64,000 nt of DNA from Leifsonia sp. Leaf264 (GTDB lineage Bacteria; Actinomycetota; Actinomycetes; Actinomycetales; Microbacteriaceae). The position numbers were made by a program, and so were the translations under genes. The DNA lies in the NCBI RefSeq assembly GCF_001422325.1, contig NZ_LMMR01000001.1:311256-375255 (forward strand), given 5' to 3'. This document shows, piece by piece, positions 6,850-42,501 of this stretch (positions are counted from its first letter, which is position 1; each line of letters begins with the position of its first letter). The notes under the pieces were generated by a model. It was not told the DNA's origin. It searched no databases and saw only the letters and a list, made by a program, of their open reading frames with translations.

Positions 6850-8220
6850 TTATCCTTCGAGAACGAAGTCGGCTCCGAGCTGCTGCAGCTTCCCGATGAA
6901 GTTCTCGTAGCCGCGCGCGATGATCCCGACGTTGGAGACCGTCGACGGGCCCTCGGCGGAGAGCGCCGCGATCAGGTGGCTGAAACCGCCGCGCAGGTCG
7001 GGAACCTCGATGTCGGCACCGTGCAGCTTGCGCGGGCCGACGATGACGGCCGAGTGGTTGAAGTTGCGCTGCCCGAAGCGGCAGGCCTGTCCGCCGAGGC
7101 AGTCCTTGTGGACCTGGATCTCGGCTCCCATGTCGATGAGCGCGTCGACGAAGCCGAAGCGCTGCTCGTAGACGGTCTCGTGCACGATCGACACGCCCTG
7201 GGCCTGGGTGAGGGCGACGACGAGAGGCTGCTGCCAGTCGGTCATGAAGCCGGGGTGCACGTCTGTCTCGATGAACACGGGGTTCAGCGGGGTTCCGGGG
7301 TGCCAGAAACGGATGCCGTCGTCGTGGATCTCGAACTGGCCGCCGACCTTGCGGAAGACGTTGAGGAAGGTGAGCATCTCCGACTGGCGCGCGCCGCCGA
7401 CGAAGATGTCGCCGTCGGTCGCGAGGGCCGCCGAGGCCCAGCTCGCGGCCTCGTTGCGGTCGAAGAGCGCACGGTGCGTGTAGCCCTCGAGACGCTCGAC
7501 GCCCTCGATGCGGATGACGCGGTCGGTGTCGACCGTGATGATCGCACCCATCTTCTGCAGGATGTTGATGAGATCCATGATCTCCGGCTCGATGGCGGCA
7601 CCCTTGAGCTCGGTGATGCCCTCGGCGCGCACGGCTGTCAGGAGCACCTGCTCGGTCGCTCCGACGCTCGGGTACGGCAGCTCCACCTTGGCGCCCCTGA
7701 GGCCGTTCGGGGCCGACATCCGGATGCCGCTGGGAAGCTTCTCCACGACGGCGCCGAACTTGCGCAGCACCTCGAGGTGGAAGTCGATCGGCCTGTCGCC
7801 GATGCGGCATCCGCCGAGATCGGGGATGAAGGCCTCACCGAGTCGGTGCAGCAGGGGTCCGCAGAACAGGATCGGGATGCGGCTTGAGCCCGCGTGGGCG
7901 TCGATATCGGCGAAGTGCGCACTCTCCACGTTCGACGGGTCGAAGATGAGCTCGCCCTCTTCGACACCCTCGACGACGCGCACTCCGTGCACCTCGAGCA
8001 GGCCGCGCACGATGCGCACGTCGCTGATGTTCGGAACGTCCTTCAGGACGCTGGGCGTCTCGCCGAGGACGGAGGCGACCATCGCCTTGGTGACGAGGTT
8101 CTTCGCCCCCTTCAGTTCGATCCGACCCAACAACGGCTTCCCGCCGTTGATCGTGATCCGGTCGACGCTGAGCCCCACAGCCGTCCCATGATTGCGTGCA
8201 TCTTCGCCGAGTGTGTTCAA
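6850..8220 (-). CDS. murA: UDP-N-acetylglucosamine 1-carboxyvinyltransferase MurA
   Basis: This 456-residue enzyme transfers enolpyruvate to UDP-GlcNAc, the first committed step of peptidoglycan synthesis. It has the substrate-binding KGAKN motif near residues 38-42 and the LGGCRIGDRPID active-site loop. The loop cysteine is retained, and that residue is the one alkylated by fosfomycin in Cys-type MurA proteins. An N-terminal extension of about 17 residues precedes the usual start, so a downstream start is possible. It follows leuD by 17 bp. Confidence 0.95.
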   Translation of the reverse strand: MNTLGEDARNHGTAVGLSVDRITINGGKPLLGRIELKGAKNLVTKAMVASVLGETPSVLKDVPNISDVRIVRGLLEVHGVRVVEGVEEGELIFDPSNVESAHFADIDAHAGSSRIPILFCGPLLHRLGEAFIPDLGGCRIGDRPIDFHLEVLRKFGAVVEKLPSGIRMSAPNGLRGAKVELPYPSVGATEQVLLTAVRAEGITELKGAAIEPEIMDLINILQKMGAIITVDTDRVIRIEGVERLEGYTHRALFDRNEAASWASAALATDGDIFVGGARQSEMLTFLNVFRKVGGQFEIHDDGIRFWHPGTPLNPVFIETDVHPGFMTDWQQPLVVALTQAQGVSIVHETVYEQRFGFVDALIDMGAEIQVHKDCLGGQACRFGQRNFNHSAVIVGPRKLHGADIEVPDLRGGFSHLIAALSAEGPSTVSNVGIIARGYENFIGKLQQLGADFVLEG

Positions 8221-13683: not shown

Positions 13684-13759
13684 TGGTGACCCCAACCGGA
13701 TTTGAACCGGTGCTGCCGCCGTGAGAGGGCGGTGTCCTAGGCCGCTAAACGATGGGGCC
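13684..13759 (-). tRNA. tRNA-Glu (anticodon CTC)
   Basis: The minus strand gives a complete cloverleaf. The acceptor GGCCCCA (from 13759) pairs with TGGGGTC, with one G-U pair. The anticodon stem CCGCC/GGCGG carries loop CTCTCAC, giving anticodon CTC for GAG codons. The T-arm has CCGGTTCAAATCCGG, the discriminator is A (13687), and CCA is encoded at 13684-13686. A strong hairpin follows as terminator. Confidence 0.95.
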
Positions 13760-33724: not shown

Positions 33725-34876
33725 TCAGCCGGCCAGTGGAACCACTCCGACCCGAACATGAGTGCCGGATGCGGCATCCTCGATCGCACGATCGAGTTCT
33801 GCCAGTGGATAGCTCGCACCGACCAGTTCTTGCAACGGCACGGTGCGCCAGGAGCGCTCGAGAAAGGCGACGGCGAGCTCCAGCTGCGCGGGCGTGTAGT
33901 TGTGCACGCCGGTCAGCGTGACGAGTCGGCGCACGATCGACTCGGCATCGAGCGGAACCGCTGGGCCGGGCGAGACGCTGCCGACGAGCACCACCGTGCC
34001 TCCGACCCCGACCCGGGAGATGACGGTGTCGACGGCTGCCGACGCCCCGGACGCCTCGATGGCGATGTTCACCTCCAGCAGGCCGCGCCGTGCCCGAGCT
34101 GCCAGAACCGTGTCGAGGTTCGCCGCGGATCCGGGCTCTGCCAGCGGGTCGACAGGAATCGCGCCGATGCGTCTGGCGAACGACCGACGGGCGGCGTCAG
34201 GGTCGGAGACGATCACCTCGGCCCCGGCCTCCACGGCGAGAGCCGCAGCCGACAGGCCGACCATGCCTCCGCCGGTGATGAGCAGCAGCGCACCGTCGAG
34301 ATCGTGGGTGCGGGATGCCGCGTCCAGGGCGGCGACCGCTGTGGCGGTGGCGCACGACGCCGCGGCGGCGACAGGCGCCGGCAGCTCGGAGCTCACGGCG
34401 ACGACGGCCGTGCCCGCCCGCACGTGCACGTGCGTGGCGAAGCCGCCAGTGAGCTCCCAACCCCGCGTGATGCGCTCGTGCCCGTACTTCGCCAGGTTGC
34501 GGCACTTCTGCGGGATGCCCCGCCTGCAGCGGTCGCACGTTCCGCAGCTCACGGCCAGCGACCACACCACGCGGTCTCCGAGTTCCAGCGGCGAACCGTC
34601 CGCGCGCACGGCGCCGTCGCCGAGCGCGACGACCCGACCGACCTGTTCATGGCCCAGTACGAGCGGCGTGGGAGCCGATCGATGCCCGCGCACGGTGTGC
34701 ACGTCGGATCCGCAGACCGTCGCGAACTCGATCTCCACAAGGGCGTCGCCGGGAGCGAGATGCACTCCGGGCGAGGCGATCAGCTGATGCGGCCGGTCGG
34801 GCTCGGTCCACACCATCGCGAGGGGCGACGGAGTCAGGGTGAGGTCCAGCCCGGTGTCGGGCAGCAGAGTCGTCAT
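33725..34876 (-). CDS. Zinc-dependent alcohol dehydrogenase of the phosphonate-associated type
   Basis: This 383-residue medium-chain dehydrogenase has catalytic zinc ligands in VCGSDVHTVRGHR and GHE, and a complete structural zinc loop CGTCDRCRRGIPQKC near residues 112-126. The nucleotide motif is GGGMVGLSAAALA. It resembles the alcohol dehydrogenase family found repeatedly in phosphonate-catabolic loci, which fits its place at the end of the phn cluster. The substrate is probably a hydroxy- or aldehyde-phosphonate-derived compound. It lies 5 bp after the hydrolase gene. Confidence 0.88.
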   Translation of the reverse strand: MTTLLPDTGLDLTLTPSPLAMVWTEPDRPHQLIASPGVHLAPGDALVEIEFATVCGSDVHTVRGHRSAPTPLVLGHEQVGRVVALGDGAVRADGSPLELGDRVVWSLAVSCGTCDRCRRGIPQKCRNLAKYGHERITRGWELTGGFATHVHVRAGTAVVAVSSELPAPVAAAASCATATAVAALDAASRTHDLDGALLLITGGGMVGLSAAALAVEAGAEVIVSDPDAARRSFARRIGAIPVDPLAEPGSAANLDTVLAARARRGLLEVNIAIEASGASAAVDTVISRVGVGGTVVLVGSVSPGPAVPLDAESIVRRLVTLTGVHNYTPAQLELAVAFLERSWRTVPLQELVGASYPLAELDRAIEDAASGTHVRVGVVPLAG

Positions 34877-34881
34877 CGTGG

Positions 34882-35631
34882 CTACTCGCCGCGGAGGCCG
34901 AGGAGAGCGGGCAGGTCACGGATGCTCGAGATCACGGCATCGGCACCGGCATCCGTCAACGCGGCCCGGTCGTGCGCACCGGTCAGCACGCCCACGACCA
35001 GGCCGGCACCGGCCCGTCTGCCCGCTTCGACATCGCTGCGGGTGTCGCCGACGACGACCATCGATGCCACGCTCGGGGCGCCGGAGCGCAGCAGCGCGGT
35101 CAGCGGGAGGTCGGGGTGCGGGCGACCGCGTCCGGCATCGACGGGCGACAGTGCCAGGTCGGCGAGCTCCTGCCAGCCGAGCGCGTCGAGCACGGCGTCA
35201 CGCGTCGCGGGTGCGAAGCCCGTGGTGAAGACGACGGATGCTCCGGCGGCGCTCAGCTCGCGGATGACGTCGGCGGCCCCGTCCACCTCGGCGACGCCGT
35301 CCCGGGCGACGATCTCGGCGTAGGCCCCCTCGAAGGCGGCGTTCCCGCGTTCAGCAGCGGCCTCATCGCCGCTGGCGAGCACCCGGAAGACGTCGATCTT
35401 CGACTGTCCCATGGTGTCGCGCACGTACTGCAGTGAGGCCTCGAAGTCGGAACCGGCACCGATGCCGCTGCGCTCGGCCGCGAGGGCGAAGGCCTGCTCG
35501 ACGGCGCCGTCGTCGCTGACGGTGGTTCCGGCCATGTCGAGCACGATGAGCTCGACGTCGGCCCAGGATCGCTGCTGCGTCGGCGCCTGCGTCGGCGCCT
35601 GCGTCTCCGGGGCGGTGGTTGCGGTTGTCAT
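34882..35631 (-). CDS. Phosphonatase-like HAD hydrolase
   Basis: This 249-residue HAD-superfamily protein resembles phosphonoacetaldehyde hydrolase PhnX. The nucleophile motif is LDMAGTT near residue 31, a lysine lies in the cap-region MGQSKIDVFR (the position of the PhnX Schiff-base lysine), and a later VVGDTRSDVEAGRRAG motif binds Mg2+. It would cleave a C-P bond to give an aldehyde and phosphate. The N-terminus has a QAPT repeat. The start overlaps the stop of the FAD oxidoreductase (ATGA). Confidence 0.88.
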   Translation of the reverse strand: MTTATTAPETQAPTQAPTQQRSWADVELIVLDMAGTTVSDDGAVEQAFALAAERSGIGAGSDFEASLQYVRDTMGQSKIDVFRVLASGDEAAAERGNAAFEGAYAEIVARDGVAEVDGAADVIRELSAAGASVVFTTGFAPATRDAVLDALGWQELADLALSPVDAGRGRPHPDLPLTALLRSGAPSVASMVVVGDTRSDVEAGRRAGAGLVVGVLTGAHDRAALTDAGADAVISSIRDLPALLGLRGE

Positions 35632-36785
35632 GCTGTTCCTTTCAGGGTGGATGAGATGGCGCCCTCGCCGAGCAGGCCGGCGACCAGGTTGTCGGCGAGT
35701 CCGAGCCCGGTGGTCATGCCGATGCCCGTCGTCGCCGCGAGCACGCTCACTCCCGGTTCGGGCTGGTCGATCAGGAAGTCGTTCGGCCCGCTCGCGTACA
35801 CGCCCTGCCAGCGCTCCAGCACGCGGAGGTCGGTGACGCCGAAGAGCTCGCGCGTGATGGCGAGCAACGCGTCGAAGGAGGCCTCGCTCTGGAACGGAGC
35901 GATCGCGGTGCCGCGGTAGTGCGTGTCTCCGACGATGAGCGAGCCGTCAGGCAGTTGGGTGTACATCTGGTTCAGGTCGAGGGCGGCCAGGGCCGGGTCC
36001 TCAGTGTGCAGACGCTCGCGCAGGGCACCTGCCGTGGGCATCGCCGCGAATCCCCCGTAGCGCACGAGCGACCAGCCGGTGAGCAGCGGTGCTGCCAGCG
36101 GCGTCCGCAGCGTCGTCGAGACGCGCAGCATGTCGAGCCCGCACCTCTCGATGCCGTGCTGCTCGGCGAGGTCGGGGAAGAGCTGGTCGATGTCGTGGTT
36201 CGCCGCGACGACGATCTCGCGCGCGTCGACGGCTCCTCGACTCGTCTCCACACGACCGCACCGGATTGAGCCGACCGAGGTGCGGTAGCGGAACTCGACC
36301 CCGTGGCGGGCCAGATGAGCGGCGATCGACGCCACAGCCTGGCGCGGGTTCACCTGGAGGTCGAGCGGGAGGAAGGCTCCACCCACGGCCGTGCCCGGGG
36401 CCAGCGGCATCCGTGCCGATGCCTCGGACGCCGTGAGGAGTTCGACCTCGCCGTTCCGCTCGGCAGCGAACTCGTCGAGCACGGCGAGTTCGTCATCGTG
36501 CCGCGCTGCGACCAGGGTTCCCGACTGCCGCAGCCAAACTCCGGCCTCGGCCGCGAGCGTCAGCCAGAGTTCGCGCGAGGCGAAGGCGAAGTCGCGGGCG
36601 ATGCCGTGCTGGGGCGTGAAGCAGAGGTGGCCGAAGTTGCGCACAGATGCGCCGGTGGGCTCGCTCCCCCGGTCGAAGACGATCACGCGCTGTCCACGGG
36701 CGTGCGCGGCGAAGGCCACTCCCAGGCCGATGATGCCCGAGCCGACAACGGCGACGTCGTAGCCGCGCTCCGTCGTGCCGCTCAT
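35628..36785 (-). CDS. FAD-dependent amine oxidoreductase of phosphonate clusters
   Basis: This 385-residue DAO-type flavoprotein has the dinucleotide motif VVGSGIIGLG near residue 12 and conserved GASVRNFGHLCFTPQ near residue 47. A C-terminal ATTGIGMTTGLGLADNL segment closes the FAD fold. Members of this subfamily occur next to phosphonatase-like genes, and some are reported to oxidise aminoethylphosphonates to phosphonoacetaldehyde. That would supply the next enzyme without a transaminase. Both ends are coupled by ATGA to phnE and the hydrolase gene. The substrate is inferred from context. Confidence 0.88.
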   Translation of the reverse strand: MSGTTERGYDVAVVGSGIIGLGVAFAAHARGQRVIVFDRGSEPTGASVRNFGHLCFTPQHGIARDFAFASRELWLTLAAEAGVWLRQSGTLVAARHDDELAVLDEFAAERNGEVELLTASEASARMPLAPGTAVGGAFLPLDLQVNPRQAVASIAAHLARHGVEFRYRTSVGSIRCGRVETSRGAVDAREIVVAANHDIDQLFPDLAEQHGIERCGLDMLRVSTTLRTPLAAPLLTGWSLVRYGGFAAMPTAGALRERLHTEDPALAALDLNQMYTQLPDGSLIVGDTHYRGTAIAPFQSEASFDALLAITRELFGVTDLRVLERWQGVYASGPNDFLIDQPEPGVSVLAATTGIGMTTGLGLADNLVAGLLGEGAISSTLKGTA

Positions 36786-38590
36786 CGGAACACCCGCCGC
36801 ATCCACACGGCCAGTCCTTCGATGATGAGCACTGTCGCGAGGATCATCAGCACGATCGTCGTGACCACGGCGTAGTGCGAGCCCTGTCCTGCGTTCAGCA
36901 GGTAGTAGCCCACTCCGCCGCCGCCGACGATCCCGAGGATCGTCGCGCAGCGGATGTTCGAGTCGAGCAGGTAGAAGCTGTGGCCGAGGAGGGCCCGTCT
37001 GCCCTGCGGCAGGGTCGCGGATGCGTACACCTGGCCACGCGTCGCCCCGGCGCCCCGGAGCGCCCGCTCGGGGCCCGATGCGACCTCCTCGAAGGAGTCG
37101 GCGATGAGCTTGCCCAGGAGCCCGATGCCTCCGAAGGCCAGGGCGAGAGTTCCGGCCTGAGTGCCGAGTCCGGTGATGACGATCAGGACGATCGCCAGGA
37201 TGATCTCGGGCACGCCCCGGATGATCACGAGAACCAGCCGCATCGACGACCGCGCCGTGCCGTTGGGGGCCACGTTCCGTGCCGCCAGCGAGCCGATGAC
37301 GACGGAGAACCCGAACGAGAGCAGCGTCGCGGCCAGCGCGATGCCGATCGTCATCCCCATCGCGGCGAACAGGGTCGACGGCTCGTAGTTGCCGAAGCTC
37401 GGAGGCCAGAACTGGGCGGCGACGGCCGGAACCTTCGCCCAGAACGTCACGAGGTCTCCCCAGTGGATATCGCAGATCAGCACGCTGCCGACCACAACGG
37501 CGACAGCCGTCCAGCCCCAGACGGTGTTGCGAACGCGGGAGCCGGTCCACGGGCGCCGGAGCGCGGCCTCGAGGTCGCCGGCTGCTGCGGTGGGGACGGG
37601 TGTCGGGGCTGAGGCCGAACCACCTGCTCGAGCGGCATCCGCTCGCCGCGTGGTGCGTGCTGCCCGCGCGCCAGTGACTCCGCGTACGACCCTGTCGCCG
37701 AGGCCGCGACCGCTGGGTTGGCTGCCGAGCATCGCGCGGCGCACCACGCTGGAGACGATCTCCATGGCGACGCAGAGCGCGAAGATGACGAGGGCGATGC
37801 CCAGTCCGAGCGAGTAGTTCAACGACTTGAAGGCGTAGGACATCTCCAGTCCGAGACCGGCGACACCGACGTAGCCGAGCACGACGGAGCCGCGCAGGTT
37901 GATGTCGTTGCGATGCAGCACCGTCGCGACCCAGGACGGGAGCACCTGAGGAAGGATGCCGCTCGTGAACTGCTGGAACTTCGATCCGCCGGCCGCCCGG
38001 ATCGCCATCCGCGGGCCCTCGTCGATCTGTTCGATGGCATCGGCGAACAGTTTCGAGATCATGCCGATGGAGTGGATGCCGATGGCGAGGATGCCGGGCA
38101 GCGAGCCGATGGAGAACATGAGCACGAAGACCATGGCGAGCACGACGTCGGGTACGGCCCGCGTGAGCACCGTGATGAACCGGCCGACGGCGCGCCAGGC
38201 CGGCCCGGGCGTGGTGTTCGAGGCTGCGATGTAGGCGACGGGCACCGAGATCACGGCGGCGAGCAGCGTGCCGCACAGCACGAGGCCGACGGTGAGCGCC
38301 GTGAGGTAGAGGAGTTCAGCGGGTTCGGGGAAGGTGATGGGCCCGACGCGGGCGAAGAAGCGCTCGGCGTGGCTCCAGCTCTCGATCATCCCCGGAAGGG
38401 AGATGCCCGATTCCGCCACGGCGACGACGGCGAGACCGACGATCACCAGGAGAGTGGATGCGGCGGCGACGCGCTCGGGCGAGACGACGCGCTTGGGCGC
38501 CCGCTCGGCGATGGAGCGATCCGGGCGGGGTGCGAGAGGCGGCGGCGACGCCGGCGCCGGCGCCGGCGCCGAGGCCGTGATGGTCGACAT
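36782..38590 (-). CDS. phnE: Fused double PhnE phosphonate ABC transporter permease
   Basis: This 602-residue protein contains two PhnE-type permease domains in one chain. The first spans about residues 50-300, with an ABC-permease loop at AIEQIDEGPRMAIRAAGGS. The second spans about 345-600, with DSFEEVASGPERALRGAGA. Each half has about six membrane segments, and a charged Ala/Arg-rich linker joins them. Usual PhnE proteins have one such domain of about 260-290 residues. The N-terminus has an Ala-Pro repeat. The ATG overlaps the phnC stop. Confidence 0.92.
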   Translation of the reverse strand: MSTITASAPAPAPASPPPLAPRPDRSIAERAPKRVVSPERVAAASTLLVIVGLAVVAVAESGISLPGMIESWSHAERFFARVGPITFPEPAELLYLTALTVGLVLCGTLLAAVISVPVAYIAASNTTPGPAWRAVGRFITVLTRAVPDVVLAMVFVLMFSIGSLPGILAIGIHSIGMISKLFADAIEQIDEGPRMAIRAAGGSKFQQFTSGILPQVLPSWVATVLHRNDINLRGSVVLGYVGVAGLGLEMSYAFKSLNYSLGLGIALVIFALCVAMEIVSSVVRRAMLGSQPSGRGLGDRVVRGVTGARAARTTRRADAARAGGSASAPTPVPTAAAGDLEAALRRPWTGSRVRNTVWGWTAVAVVVGSVLICDIHWGDLVTFWAKVPAVAAQFWPPSFGNYEPSTLFAAMGMTIGIALAATLLSFGFSVVIGSLAARNVAPNGTARSSMRLVLVIIRGVPEIILAIVLIVITGLGTQAGTLALAFGGIGLLGKLIADSFEEVASGPERALRGAGATRGQVYASATLPQGRRALLGHSFYLLDSNIRCATILGIVGGGGVGYYLLNAGQGSHYAVVTTIVLMILATVLIIEGLAVWMRRVFR

Positions 38591-39414
38591 CAACCGACGA
38601 CCGCTCGAGACTGAGCCGATTCGGCGAGTTCGACGGTGATCGCCTCGAGCTCGCTGGTCGACGTCGTGACACGACCGTAGACCTCCATCACCTGTCCCTT
38701 CGACAGACCGTCGACCGACGTGTCGAGCACGACCTCGCCGTGCCGGAGCCCGACGATGCGATCGGCCCACGACAGGGCCAGGTCGACCTGGTGCAGGCTG
38801 CACACCACCGTGAGGCCTGCCTCCATCGCGATCTCGCGGATGAGGCTCATGACCTGGTCGCTCGACTCGGGGTCGAGAGAGGCGACGGGCTCGTCTGCCA
38901 GGAGGATCTCGGGGTCCTGCATCAGCGCCCGGGCGATGGCCACGCGCTGCTGCTGCCCACCTGAGAGGGTGTCGGCGCGCTGGTAGGCGCGATCGAGCAG
39001 CCCGACCCTGTCGAGGTGGCCGAGCGCCACGAGCTTCAACCGCCGCGGGTAGGCCCAGAGACCGAGTCGCGGCCCGCGCAGCTCTGCCAGCGCTCCGGTG
39101 AGCACGTTCTCGAGCACTGTGAGCGATGGCACGAGCTCGAACTGCTGGAAGACGAAGCCGATGCGGCTGCGCAGGGCGCGGAGGCGCCGACCACCGAGGG
39201 TCGGCACCTCCTCGCCGAGCACGCGCACGGAGCCGGAGGTTGTGGGCTCGAGCCCGACGAGCTGCCGCAGCAACGTCGACTTGCCCGAGCCCGACAGGCC
39301 GAGCAGCACGACGATCTCGCCGGGTTCGACACGCAACGCCACGTTCTTCAGCGCGACTGTGCGCCCGAACTCCTTCGTGAGTCCTGCGACTTCGACGACG
39401 GATGTCTCGCTCAT
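38590..39414 (-). CDS. phnC: Phosphonate ABC transporter ATP-binding protein
   Basis: This 274-residue ABC ATPase has Walker A GLSGSGKST near residue 39, the signature LSGGQQQR near residue 148 and Walker B ILLADEPVASLDPES. The VFQQFELVPSLTVLENVLTG block is typical of PhnC. It powers phosphonate import with the fused PhnE and PhnD. It lies 48 bp after phnD and overlaps phnE by four bases. Confidence 0.93.
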   Translation of the reverse strand: MSETSVVEVAGLTKEFGRTVALKNVALRVEPGEIVVLLGLSGSGKSTLLRQLVGLEPTTSGSVRVLGEEVPTLGGRRLRALRSRIGFVFQQFELVPSLTVLENVLTGALAELRGPRLGLWAYPRRLKLVALGHLDRVGLLDRAYQRADTLSGGQQQRVAIARALMQDPEILLADEPVASLDPESSDQVMSLIREIAMEAGLTVVCSLHQVDLALSWADRIVGLRHGEVVLDTSVDGLSKGQVMEVYGRVTTSTSELEAITVELAESAQSRAVVG

Positions 39415-39462: not shown

Positions 39463-40398
39463 TCAGCCCTGGCACTGGTCCGCGTTCGTCTTCTTGCAGA
39501 TGTCGCGGATCGTGTCGTAGTACGCGTCGTCGACGGGCGACGTCGCGTAGAACACACTGCGGAACCCGTCGCTGTCGGCGCTGGTCACGCCTGAAGCGAT
39601 GATGTCGTCGATGGTGACCTCGCTGAGCACGTCGGTCAGCTTCGTCTTGAGGTCCTCGGGCAGGGTGTCCGACACCACGATCGGAGCACCGGGAACCATC
39701 GTCTCGTCGACGACCTTCACCTTGTCGCTCTTGGCGACCTCGCTGTCCTCGGCGAAGCCGGCTTCGCACTCCACGCCCTCGCCGACCTTGGTGACGCTGA
39801 CATCGTGCTTGCCCGCGAAGACCGGGGTGACGTCCTTCTCGGGGTCGATGCCCTCGTTCAGCAGGTTGTAGCTGGGGAACAGGTAGCCCGAGGTCGACGA
39901 CGGGTCGACGAAGCAGACCTTCTTGCCCTTGAAGCCGGCCAGGTCGGTGATGTCGCTTCCCGTAGGCACGATGGCCTGCGAGTAGTACCCGGGCTCCTGG
40001 CCCTTCTCCGTGATGATCGACGAGATCGGAGTGATGGCGGCACCGTTGTTCTTGGCGGTGACGTAGGTGAACCCGGAGAAGGACGCGACGTCGATCTTGC
40101 CCGCGACAGCGGCCTCGATGAGCGCCGCGTAGTCGGTGGACTCGTGGTAGTCGACCTTCTTGCCCGTCTCCTGGGCGATGTAGTCCATGAGCGGCTGGTA
40201 GTTGGTCTCGGTGTCGACGGAGTCGGGCACGACGCCGAACACGATCGTGTTCTCGTCGACGGCGTACGAGACGGTGTCTGCGGTGTCGTTGGACGCGCTG
40301 TCGCCGGTTGCGGCGGTGCCGGAACATCCGGCGAGGGTGGCGGCGAGTGCCCCGACGCCGAGCAGGGCGACGATGGAGCGGGAGAATCGCGTGGACAT
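39463..40398 (-). CDS. phnD: Phosphonate ABC transporter substrate-binding lipoprotein
   Basis: This 311-residue lipoprotein has lipobox LAGC (Cys25) and the PhnD fold. It shows VFGVVPDSVDTETNYQPLMDYIAQETGKKV near residue 55, DVASFSGFTYV near residue 103, and SGYLFPSYNL near residue 167. It captures phosphonates outside the cell for PhnCE. AAAGG precedes the ATG. It is the first gene of the leftward phn operon, behind a candidate operator shared with the divergent GntR gene. Confidence 0.93.
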   Translation of the reverse strand: MSTRFSRSIVALLGVGALAATLAGCSGTAATGDSASNDTADTVSYAVDENTIVFGVVPDSVDTETNYQPLMDYIAQETGKKVDYHESTDYAALIEAAVAGKIDVASFSGFTYVTAKNNGAAITPISSIITEKGQEPGYYSQAIVPTGSDITDLAGFKGKKVCFVDPSSTSGYLFPSYNLLNEGIDPEKDVTPVFAGKHDVSVTKVGEGVECEAGFAEDSEVAKSDKVKVVDETMVPGAPIVVSDTLPEDLKTKLTDVLSEVTIDDIIASGVTSADSDGFRSVFYATSPVDDAYYDTIRDICKKTNADQCQG

Positions 40399-40559: not shown

Positions 40560-40574
40560 TAATATGCCTATGTG
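40560..40574 (+). promoter_or_regulatory. -10 box and leaderless start of gntR
   Basis: A TAATAT box at 40560-40565 is followed six bases later by the GTG start codon, with no Shine-Dalgarno. A transcript starting 7 bases after the box would begin at the GTG itself. Confidence 0.6.
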
Positions 40575-41321
40575 ACCTTCGGTGTATACAAACAGATCGC
40601 GGATGACCTCCGAGAGCGCATCTCCACGGGGCAGCTGGCCCCAGGCGACGACGTTCCCACCGAGGGCGAGCTCGCGCAGCAGTGGAACACCTCGCGGGGA
40701 CCCATCCGCAACGCATTGGCCGAACTCCGCCGCGAAGGGCTGATCGAGACGACTCGTGGTCGCCCGAGCCGGGTCGTCAAGCGCAAGGCGCACCAGGCCG
40801 TCGACGTCTCGATCCCCTTCACGAAATGGGCCCGCGAGATGGGAGCGGAGCCGGGCGCCGTCACCCAGCAGGTCTCACTTCGCCGTGCCGATGACGACCA
40901 GGCCGGGATGCTCGGCATCGAGCCCGGCGACATCGTCGTCGAGGTCATCCGTCTCCGACTCCTCGATGGCCGCCCGACGATGCTCGAGCGACTCATGTTC
41001 ATCGAGGAGGTGGGCCGGGTGCTCTTCGACATCGACCTCGACACGGTCTCCATCACCGAGTACCTCGCCGAAAGAGGCCACCCGTACTCGGAGGTCGATC
41101 ACGAGATCGATGCGGTGGCGGCCGACGACCTCGACAGCAGGCTCCTCGAGGTCGAGCCCGGCTCGCCGATCCTGCGCCTGCGCCGCGTGACGCGACGGGC
41201 CGACGGCCGCGTGTTCGAAGCGTCCGACGACAGGTATCGCAGCGACATCGTGCGCTTCACCGTGTCGGCATCGGGGCGCGCGATCTCCGGCGAGCACTTC
41301 ATCCGCCCCGTCGGCGAGTAA
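40572..41321 (+). CDS. GntR-family (HutC/UTRA) transcriptional regulator
   Basis: This 249-residue regulator has an N-terminal winged helix (residues 3-70, with YKQIADDLRERISTGQLAPG and GPIRNALAELRREGLIE) and a C-terminal UTRA ligand-binding domain (about 90-245). It is divergent from phnD, with 173 bp between starts, and is therefore the likely controller of the phosphonate genes. Its effector would be a phosphonate or a breakdown product. The GTG start is the only reasonable one, because the ATG two bases before it hits a stop immediately. Confidence 0.92.
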   Translation: MTFGVYKQIADDLRERISTGQLAPGDDVPTEGELAQQWNTSRGPIRNALAELRREGLIETTRGRPSRVVKRKAHQAVDVSIPFTKWAREMGAEPGAVTQQVSLRRADDDQAGMLGIEPGDIVVEVIRLRLLDGRPTMLERLMFIEEVGRVLFDIDLDTVSITEYLAERGHPYSEVDHEIDAVAADDLDSRLLEVEPGSPILRLRRVTRRADGRVFEASDDRYRSDIVRFTVSASGRAISGEHFIRPVGE

Positions 41322-41325
41322 GCGC

Positions 41326-42216
41326 TCACGCCCCGATCAGCACCACCCCTGCGACGACGATGACGGATGCCGCGACCCGCCATCCTCCGCGGCCCTCCCT
41401 CAGCACGAGCGCGCCGAACGCGCTGACGATCACGACGCTGACCTCGCGCATCGGCGCGACGAGGGCGACCGGCGCGAGGGTCACGGCGAACAGCACGAGG
41501 ATGTACGACAGCGGCGACAGGATGCCGAACGTCAGGATGCGCACCCAGTGCTCCCGCCAGACAGTGCCGAGCTCGTGTGCCCGCCGACCGAGCAGAGCCG
41601 AGAACAGCACGATCTCCCCGGCCGTGCAGCCTACCATGAAGGCGACAGGGGACACGTGCCCCTCCCGCACGACGTTCGCGTCCCAGAGCGTGTACGCGGC
41701 GATCGCGATGCCGGTCGCGATTCCCCAGGCGATCGCCGGGTCGATCCGGCGGTGTCGCATCGGTGTTCGCGCTCCGACGCCCGCATCCGCCGCCGGCCGA
41801 TCGAGCAGCCCGATCGCCACGACGCCGGCCAGGATCGCGGCGATGCCGAGCATGGCCCACGCTGACGGCCGCTCCCCCAGAACGAGCACGGCCACGACGA
41901 CAGTGACGAGGGGACCGGTCCCCCGCGCCGTCGCATAGACGGTCGAGAGCATCCCGGTGGAGTAGCCGCGCTGCAGCACGAGCATGTAGGCGCAGTGCAG
42001 CGCGGCCGACACTGCCACGCCGAGTACGAAGCCGCCGAGGTCGCCCGTGCCGATACCGCCGGTGAACGGCACGAGAGGCAGCCAGATCACCGCGCTGGCG
42101 AGGGCACCCCACCACAGGAACGGCAGGCCGATGCGACTGACACCGTGGGCGAGGATGTTCCACGCCGAGTGGCAGACGGCTGCAGCCAGGACAAGGACGA
42201 GAGCGACAGACGACAC
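41326..42216 (-). CDS. EamA-family (DMT) transporter under guanidine-I riboswitch
   Basis: This 296-residue protein has about ten transmembrane segments in two EamA repeats, with the VYATARGTGPLVTVVVAVLVLGE segment near residue 92 ending repeat one. The start is a GTG at 42216, with AAGGG just upstream. A guanidine-I (ykkC) riboswitch ends 34 bases before it, so the protein is a candidate guanidine or guanidine-compound exporter. It is convergent with gntR, 4 bp apart, and is probably not part of the phosphonate operon. Confidence 0.88.
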   Translation of the reverse strand: MSSVALVLVLAAAVCHSAWNILAHGVSRIGLPFLWWGALASAVIWLPLVPFTGGIGTGDLGGFVLGVAVSAALHCAYMLVLQRGYSTGMLSTVYATARGTGPLVTVVVAVLVLGERPSAWAMLGIAAILAGVVAIGLLDRPAADAGVGARTPMRHRRIDPAIAWGIATGIAIAAYTLWDANVVREGHVSPVAFMVGCTAGEIVLFSALLGRRAHELGTVWREHWVRILTFGILSPLSYILVLFAVTLAPVALVAPMREVSVVIVSAFGALVLREGRGGWRVAASVIVVAGVVLIGA

Positions 42217-42250
42217 GGGACCCTTCGGTGCGTCGCGGGCGCGACGAACG

Positions 42251-42353
42251 GGGTCCTCCGGGCTTTTGTCCTGTCAGATGACGGCCCCCGTTGGCGGTGG
42301 CCGTGGCGCCGCTCGGACCAGTCGGATCTCTCGATCCCGGAACCCTAGGCGCT
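42251..42353 (-). ncRNA. Guanidine-I (ykkC-yxkD) riboswitch
   Basis: The minus strand contains, in order, the conserved blocks of the ykkC motif: CCTAGGGTTCCG (42350-42339), GACTGGTCCGAG, CCACGG, and GGACAAAAGCCCGGAGG (42271-42255). The aptamer directly precedes an EamA transporter. Downstream, GGACCC (42256-42251) can pair with GGGTCC (42223-42218), which abuts the GTG start. A GC-rich hairpin lies between them, suggesting ligand control of translation start. The sequence blocks are seen; ligand identity is by family knowledge. ppGpp- and PRPP-type variants normally sit before other gene classes. Confidence 0.9.
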
Positions 42354-42501
42354 ATCGCAGATGACGGTAGCACGTACGGGTGACGCGAGGTGTCACCTGC
42401 CGCGTCGTCTGAGCCGACATTCACGTGAGTGAAACAACTTGCCGCTATGGTCAAGCTCACCGAGCGAAGGCGGTTGACCATGCACCATGTCGGAGTGTTC
42501 G

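Follow-up and report, generated by a model that had tools for sequence, protein, structure and literature searches.

An RNA best classed as ykkC subtype 2d precedes an EamA-type transporter gene in Leifsonia and keeps company with aminophosphonate-breakdown genes

Which compound does the RNA ahead of the EamA gene in Leifsonia sp. Leaf264 respond to, and how would it act on that gene? The window, by which we mean the whole stretch of 64,000 nucleotides that was analysed, carries on its minus strand a ykkC-type aptamer composed of P1, P2 and P3 (positions 42253–42359), followed by a gene for an EamA/DMT transporter (41326–42216; GTG start, 296 aa; Pfam PF00892, 58.1 bits). An earlier note had rightly named this gene as the target and had taken the RNA for a guanidine-I riboswitch. 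The reading favored here, with a probability of roughly 0.6, is that of an orphan riboswitch of subtype 2d that exerts translational control over an exporter of the EamA/phn_DUF6 type, with a metabolite of aminophosphonate breakdown as its ligand.

The RNA element is real, and it is a riboswitch of the ykkC fold. The conserved blocks CTAGGGTTCCG (42348–42338), ACTGGTCCGAG (42322–42312) and GGACAAAAGCCCGGAGG (42271–42255) are present on the minus strand, as the earlier note had reported, and a pattern made of three blocks has a single match in the window and none in 100 shuffles. Two details of that description were corrected. CACGG does occur (42305–42301), at the start of P2 and not between P2 and P3, and the distance from the GGAGG that ends the motif to the GTG is 38 nt rather than 34. 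Rfam model RF00442 aligns end to end with the RNA (model positions 1–107, over 42359–42253) at 55.6 bits, with an E-value of 5.9e-9 genome-wide and 3.8e-9 in 701 bases. No other Rfam family gives a significant match on the minus strand at the locus, and the RF00442 match there is the sole one in the whole genome at E up to 0.001. The covariance-model check that had been proposed thus gave a significant match, one that falls short of the gathering score of 63; no ykkC element reaches the Rfam gathering level in the 64-kb window, where a tRNA gene (13687–13759, minus strand) is the sole match at that level. A covariance model built from 64 aligned Actinobacterial relatives, window included (model R1), scores the window RNA at 152.2 bits, the window being part of the R1 training set. 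The window's family was sampled with 398 genomes; RF00442 matches in 39 of them and exceeds its cut-off in none. R1 recovers the same 39 genomes at E 1.2e-17 or better, training members matching by construction; two marginal extra R1 matches (G077 and G191, E about 5e-4) were not counted. The gene downstream of the RNA in the 38 family loci besides the window encodes EamA in 37 cases and TauE in one, and the same RNA precedes TauE in G284, G777, L111 and L148.

The class of the RNA was judged from one base, from a linker and from the partner gene. A46 of guanidine-I is described as the single position that tells guanidine sensors apart from the pyrimidine-bearing subtypes 2a and 2b, and sorting on this position alone is described as separating the guanidine gene contexts (PMC6031431). 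In the cmscan alignment, the equivalent base of the window RNA is a C (CCGAG-C-G, position 42311, minus strand), and the linker between P2 and P3 reads CATCT (42276–42280, minus strand) where guanidine-I has CACGG. The marker is C in all 64 aligned Actinobacterial relatives (window included), and the linker is CATCT in all 64. The 39th family locus (G096), which lies outside the 64-row alignment, has marker C, linker CATTC and CAAGGG for CTAGGG. Guanidine-I controls were 20 RF00442 matches above cut-off, namely all 10 of the phylum sample and 10 of the 13 in the Paracoccus-family sample, where six of the ten markers were read by script and those of L221, L224, L225 and L227 by eye. These controls carry A at the marker in 18 cases, G in two and a pyrimidine in none, and ACGG stands before P3 in all 20. 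The genes listed for ykkC subtype 2d are EamA (originally phn_DUF6) and TauE (PMC7266159, PMC5912903), and a 2020 review presents 2d as the remaining ykkC class lacking a ligand (PMC7266159). The only NCBIfam match of the window transporter at E up to 0.001 is TIGR03340 (phn_DUF6; 101.9 bits, under the cut-off of 288.15). Because of the marker C, the CATCT linker and the EamA/phn_DUF6 or TauE partner, the RNA is best classed as subtype 2d, a match to the text descriptions of the published class rather than to its consensus. It shares with those descriptions the ykkC fold, a non-A marker, a phn_DUF6-type EamA or a TauE directly downstream and the resemblance to guanidine-I, and no separating feature was found when it was compared with them in the available parts of PMC7266159 and PMC5912903. 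What the earlier note had found is best seen as a member of an orphan class already described, to which it gave the wrong ligand, guanidine.

A guanidine-I riboswitch controlling a guanidine exporter would account for the P1-P2-P3 architecture, for most of the conserved blocks and for the end-to-end alignment to RF00442, the only significant Rfam family on the strand; moreover, 2d is described as the subtype closest to guanidine-I, and its transporters as sharing a superfamily with those for guanidine (PMC5912903). The case against it is made by the marker C, by CATCT in place of CACGG before P3, by the sub-cut-off score, seen in the window and in every matching genome of the family, and by a partner gene that is published for 2d (PMC7266159). 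In addition, a urea/guanidine carboxylase (TIGR02712 over cut-off) is unlinked to the RNA: it occurs in 6 of the 39 RNA-positive genomes and in 5 of 41 RNA-negative ones, the latter taken from the 70 RNA-negative genomes of the same 15 genera and including all 22 HpnW/PbfD carriers among those 70. A guanidine sensor is therefore highly improbable, and the RNA is very probably not guanidine-I by its sequence features. The earlier idea of an under-described exporter may well survive, for a compound other than guanidine. More generally, a sub-cut-off RF00442 match is no ground for calling an RNA a guanidine sensor.

PRPP (2b) and ppGpp (2a) aptamers resemble the window RNA in having a pyrimidine at the marker and a linker whose fourth letter is C (CATC, CACC), as opposed to the G of guanidine-I (CACG). 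They differ from it in the linker itself, which is ACACC rather than CATCT, and in gene content, the window locus having an EamA gene and no purine or amino-acid gene. PRPP, ppGpp and NDP variants were rejected because linker and gene content differ. R1 scores eight Firmicutes loci of 2a/2b type at 32.7–52.4 bits and, outside the family, four 2d loci of Actinobacteria at 111.7–140 bits, these four being in its training set.

How the RNA would act on the gene is suggested by the expression platform (42218–42256, minus strand), a hairpin in which GGACCC (42256–42251) faces GGGTCC (42223–42218), just before the GTG at 42216. Its 3′ side contains GAAGG, the likely ribosome-binding site. The pairing of GGACCC with GGGTCC near the start codon, already proposed in the earlier note, covaries in the 64 aligned relatives. 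GAGGANC follows the aptamer in 63 of them, and 52 have GAAGG, then GGNTCC-type letters, then the start codon. The structure tested comprised 12 pairs, made up of the outer helix and two inner helices from RNAalifold. Of its 768 cells, 92.3% are paired and 66 are doubly changed, compared with 11.3 in shuffles, none of 500 of which reached that value. Sliding the structure by one to three columns left at most 51.9% paired, in a control biased toward the structure, which was partly derived from the same alignment. RNAalifold run with no structure supplied predicted five of the six outer pairs and gave compensatory change in 23 of 42 pairs of the whole RNA; covariation in the outer helix lies mainly in one pair (columns 132–172, 13 doubly changed sequences). 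Given the covariation in 64 relatives and the RNAalifold result, the GGACCC/GGGTCC pairing is supported beyond chance. Folding of the single sequence was no better than that of shuffles (z 0.13; also z −0.86 and −0.84), and the structure is backed by comparison, not by single-sequence folding. With no T-run behind it and the putative ribosome-binding site on its 3′ side, the hairpin was taken to act on translation.

The switching step would involve the GAGGA of the repeat, which is invariant in the alignment. In the centroid fold of the aptamer alone, the last GGA of GAGGA pairs with UCU of the linker, and in the platform the same GGA forms the 5′ arm; the RNAalifold model instead pairs the linker UCU with the first GGA. 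The overlap at the last GGA is likely to be the switch if the modeled folds are correct, a point on which two invariant segments can yield no covariation. In the unbound state, the terminal GGACCC of the aptamer would pair with GGGTCC and bury GAAGG beside the GTG. Ligand binding would stabilize P3 and its GGAGGA end, and stabilization of P3 would free the ribosome-binding site and turn the transporter on. We infer the ON direction because the established classes that sense guanidine, ppGpp and PRPP are described as ON switches (PMC6031431). The transporter would then bleed the ligand metabolite out of the cell.

What that metabolite might be is suggested by the neighboring genes. Convergent with the EamA gene lies, on the plus strand, a gene for a HutC/PhnF-like GntR/UTRA regulator (40572–41321; Pfam GntR and UTRA over cut-off), whose best NCBIfam matches, HutC and PhnF, are both sub-cut-off. 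Past it, an operon on the minus strand encodes in order a PhnD-type phosphonate-binding protein (39463–40398; PF12974, 164 bits, and TIGR01098, 170.3 bits, both over cut-off; the PhnD equivalog TIGR03431 at 147.4, under its cut-off of 261.1), the PhnC ATPase (38590–39414; TIGR02315, 283.4 bits, cut-off 266.1), a PhnE-type permease of 602 aa with two permease domains (36782–38590; called from two stretches of Pfam BPD_transp_1, reading frame and synteny), an FAD oxidoreductase of the HpnW/PbfD family (35628–36785; TIGR03364, 394.2 bits, cut-off 285.1), a phosphonatase-like HAD hydrolase (34882–35631; TIGR03351, 213.3 bits, just under the cut-off of 218.9) and an HpnZ-type alcohol dehydrogenase of phosphonate clusters (33725–34876; TIGR03366, 370.8 bits, cut-off 328.1). 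The two-domain permease has relatives of similar length in the family loci. The set is like that of PbfD/HpnW clusters, in which a TIGR03364 oxidase occurs with PhnD, PhnC, a PhnE-type permease, a phosphonatase-like hydrolase and HpnZ. PbfD1 is placed in the TIGR03364 family, and the enzymes PbfC and PbfD are reported to oxidize N-methyl-AEP to phosphonoacetaldehyde and methylamine, PbfD1 releasing dimethylamine from the dimethyl compound (PMC10590968). The available parts of the cluster literature (PMC10590968, PMC12366243) mention no PbfD/HpnW cluster that opens with an EamA gene under a riboswitch.

The link between the RNA and these genes holds across the window's family. HpnW/PbfD (TIGR03364 over cut-off) is present in all 39 RNA-positive genomes, whereas it is present in 72 of the 359 RNA-negative ones (Fisher p 8e-25, for 398 genomes that are related and not independent). 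When the comparison is confined to the 15 genera in which the RNA occurs (109 genomes, 61 of them oxidase carriers), the chance that all 39 would fall among carriers is 3e-12, from a within-genus table compiled by hand. In 27 of the 39 genomes (the window, 25 loci and G096), phosphonate genes follow the RNA on its downstream side at a distance of no more than about 5 kb; the other 12 have the RNA and its gene at a separate place, with no phosphonate genes in the stretch examined. Of the two marginal R1 matches, G191 has the oxidase over cut-off and G077 is without it. The EamA gene is itself nearly absent where the RNA is absent, with matches in 6 of 44 genomes, strong in three, among the 70 RNA-negative genomes of the same 15 genera. 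One of these, in G045 (L215), where neither inspection by sight nor R1 found the RNA, has EamA at the head of a phosphonate operon, so that the RNA is not required for the gene link. The co-occurrence with HpnW/PbfD and the phosphonate synteny of the RNA are new here; neither they nor the translation-blocking hairpin figure in the 2d descriptions in the available parts of PMC7266159 and PMC5912903.

Conservation of the transporter points to one type of substrate. After 13 of 82 rows, short or repeated, were dropped, the EamA alignment held 69 sequences (58 mainly of the window's kind, nine alphaproteobacterial and two mycobacterial). H15, W18, N19, H73, R97 and D178 are invariant in it and R256 and E257 are 99% conserved (L060 alignment positions). 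A pair of conserved arginines would be in keeping with an anion or a zwitterion.

A wider scan, which found at least 120 stretches and from which 80 loci were covered, showed how far the link extends outside the family. Among the matches listed, the oxidase is over cut-off in all five Actinobacterial EamA loci outside the sample (two mycobacterial records, Aeromicrobium of the Nocardioidaceae, Agromyces and Lumbricidophila, of which the last two may be Microbacteriaceae). The matches listed also include it over cut-off in one of three TauE loci outside the family, the TauE frame of L110 being broken, and in none of six loci with a different EamA and none of 16 loci of other kinds. For alphaproteobacterial 2d-like RNAs with phn_DUF6-like genes, HpnW is over cut-off in one of ten genomes among the matches listed, and no phosphonate cluster was recognized in the 8-kb records of these loci, where generic ABC ATPases appeared in 3 of 10. 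These counts argue that the phosphonate link is strong in the window's lineage and is not general. The 2d ligand may thus be something that phosphonate breakdown merely supplies in this lineage. The ten alphaproteobacterial RNAs that precede phn_DUF6-like EamA genes (L096, L098, L099, L128, L130, L144, L145, L152, L165 and L168) have the linker CACCC and are possibly a second 2d branch. In the family of Paracoccus denitrificans, RF00442 matches below cut-off in 4 of 100 genomes.

Given a riboswitch of subtype 2d, the ligand in the window's family would most likely be a metabolite of aminophosphonate breakdown, either phosphonate-bearing (N-methyl-AEP, AEP or phosphonoacetaldehyde) or a released amine. 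No ligand assignment for 2d appears in the available parts of the ykkC and riboswitch literature, including PMC7266159, PMC5912903 and PMC10043782. In the PRPP aptamer, the pyrimidine at the marker site is reported to help coordinate a metal that binds the 5-phosphate of the ligand (PMC6031431). A phosphonate ligand would suit such a marker pyrimidine, and a phosphonate-bearing compound is favored by the gene company and by this aptamer. Small amines such as methylammonium are favored by a published guess and by the PbfD reaction. The narrower proposal that the 2d ligand, at least in Actinobacteria, is one of the three phosphonate-bearing PbfD/HpnW metabolites is a tentative one. If it were true, riboswitches of class 2d would sense a C-P compound, to our knowledge as the first class to do so, and EamA would be the relief exporter.

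Several points tell against an aminophosphonate metabolite. Alphaproteobacterial loci and TauE loci outside the family are mostly without the link, and the 12 family loci noted above are apart from phosphonate genes; a plus-strand regulator stands between EamA and PhnD; the G045 operon is without the RNA, and G077 is without the oxidase. The EamA protein scores far below the phn_DUF6 cut-off, and single-sequence folding gives no support. A further point is the proposal from the Breaker laboratory of a small, charged, toxic compound (PMC5912903), and a 2d riboswitch with a small toxic cation as its ligand draws on it, on the methylamine and dimethylamine that PbfC and PbfD are described as releasing from N-methylated aminophosphonates (PMC10590968), and on the alphaproteobacterial loci, which mostly lack an HpnW link. 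Such a cation is nevertheless an unlikely ligand. TauE-type partners are best known as anion exporters. The marker pyrimidine helps to hold a phosphate in the PRPP aptamer (PMC6031431), and some bacteria are said to use methylamine as a nitrogen source (PMC10590968). Methylammonium or dimethylammonium would fit both the cation and the aminophosphonate ideas.

The RNA could also be of the same class with the phosphonate link being genomic company, EamA being a general exporter and the ligand having nothing to do with phosphonates. The 12 separated family loci fit this account, as do the alphaproteobacterial and some other outside loci without the link, yet it must contend with co-occurrence in 39 of 39 genomes even where the loci lie apart, with the within-genus test and with the near absence of EamA from RNA-negative genomes. 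We consider it improbable, and we infer that an aminophosphonate metabolite is exported. The complete co-occurrence, the short list of candidate compounds and the compact platform make the 2d ligand question testable.

Other ykkC-type RNAs met in the scan extend the range of linkers and partners. A further type, with marker C and mostly the linker CACCT (L045, L046, L047, L095, L114, L117, L140, L146 and L149), occurs in Actinomycetota, Anaerolineae and Bipolaricaulota and, where translated, precedes what seems to be another EamA subfamily (2A78-like in L045, the one case that was scanned). G673 has two ykkC-type RNAs, L089 (the same place as L042) and L049; the first of these stands before the gene of a HAD-NUDIX protein, a partner known from descriptions of 2c, and provides a 2c-like contrast. 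An RNA of Marinobacter (L115, 5497–5587) is of mixed type, with marker C but the guanidine-I linker CACGG. The RNA of G096 (L085, near 8000–8113) is divergent and 2d-like, yet it heads an EamA gene and a phosphonate operon, and a second PhnD-PhnC-PhnE-like set lies upstream of it on the opposite strand.
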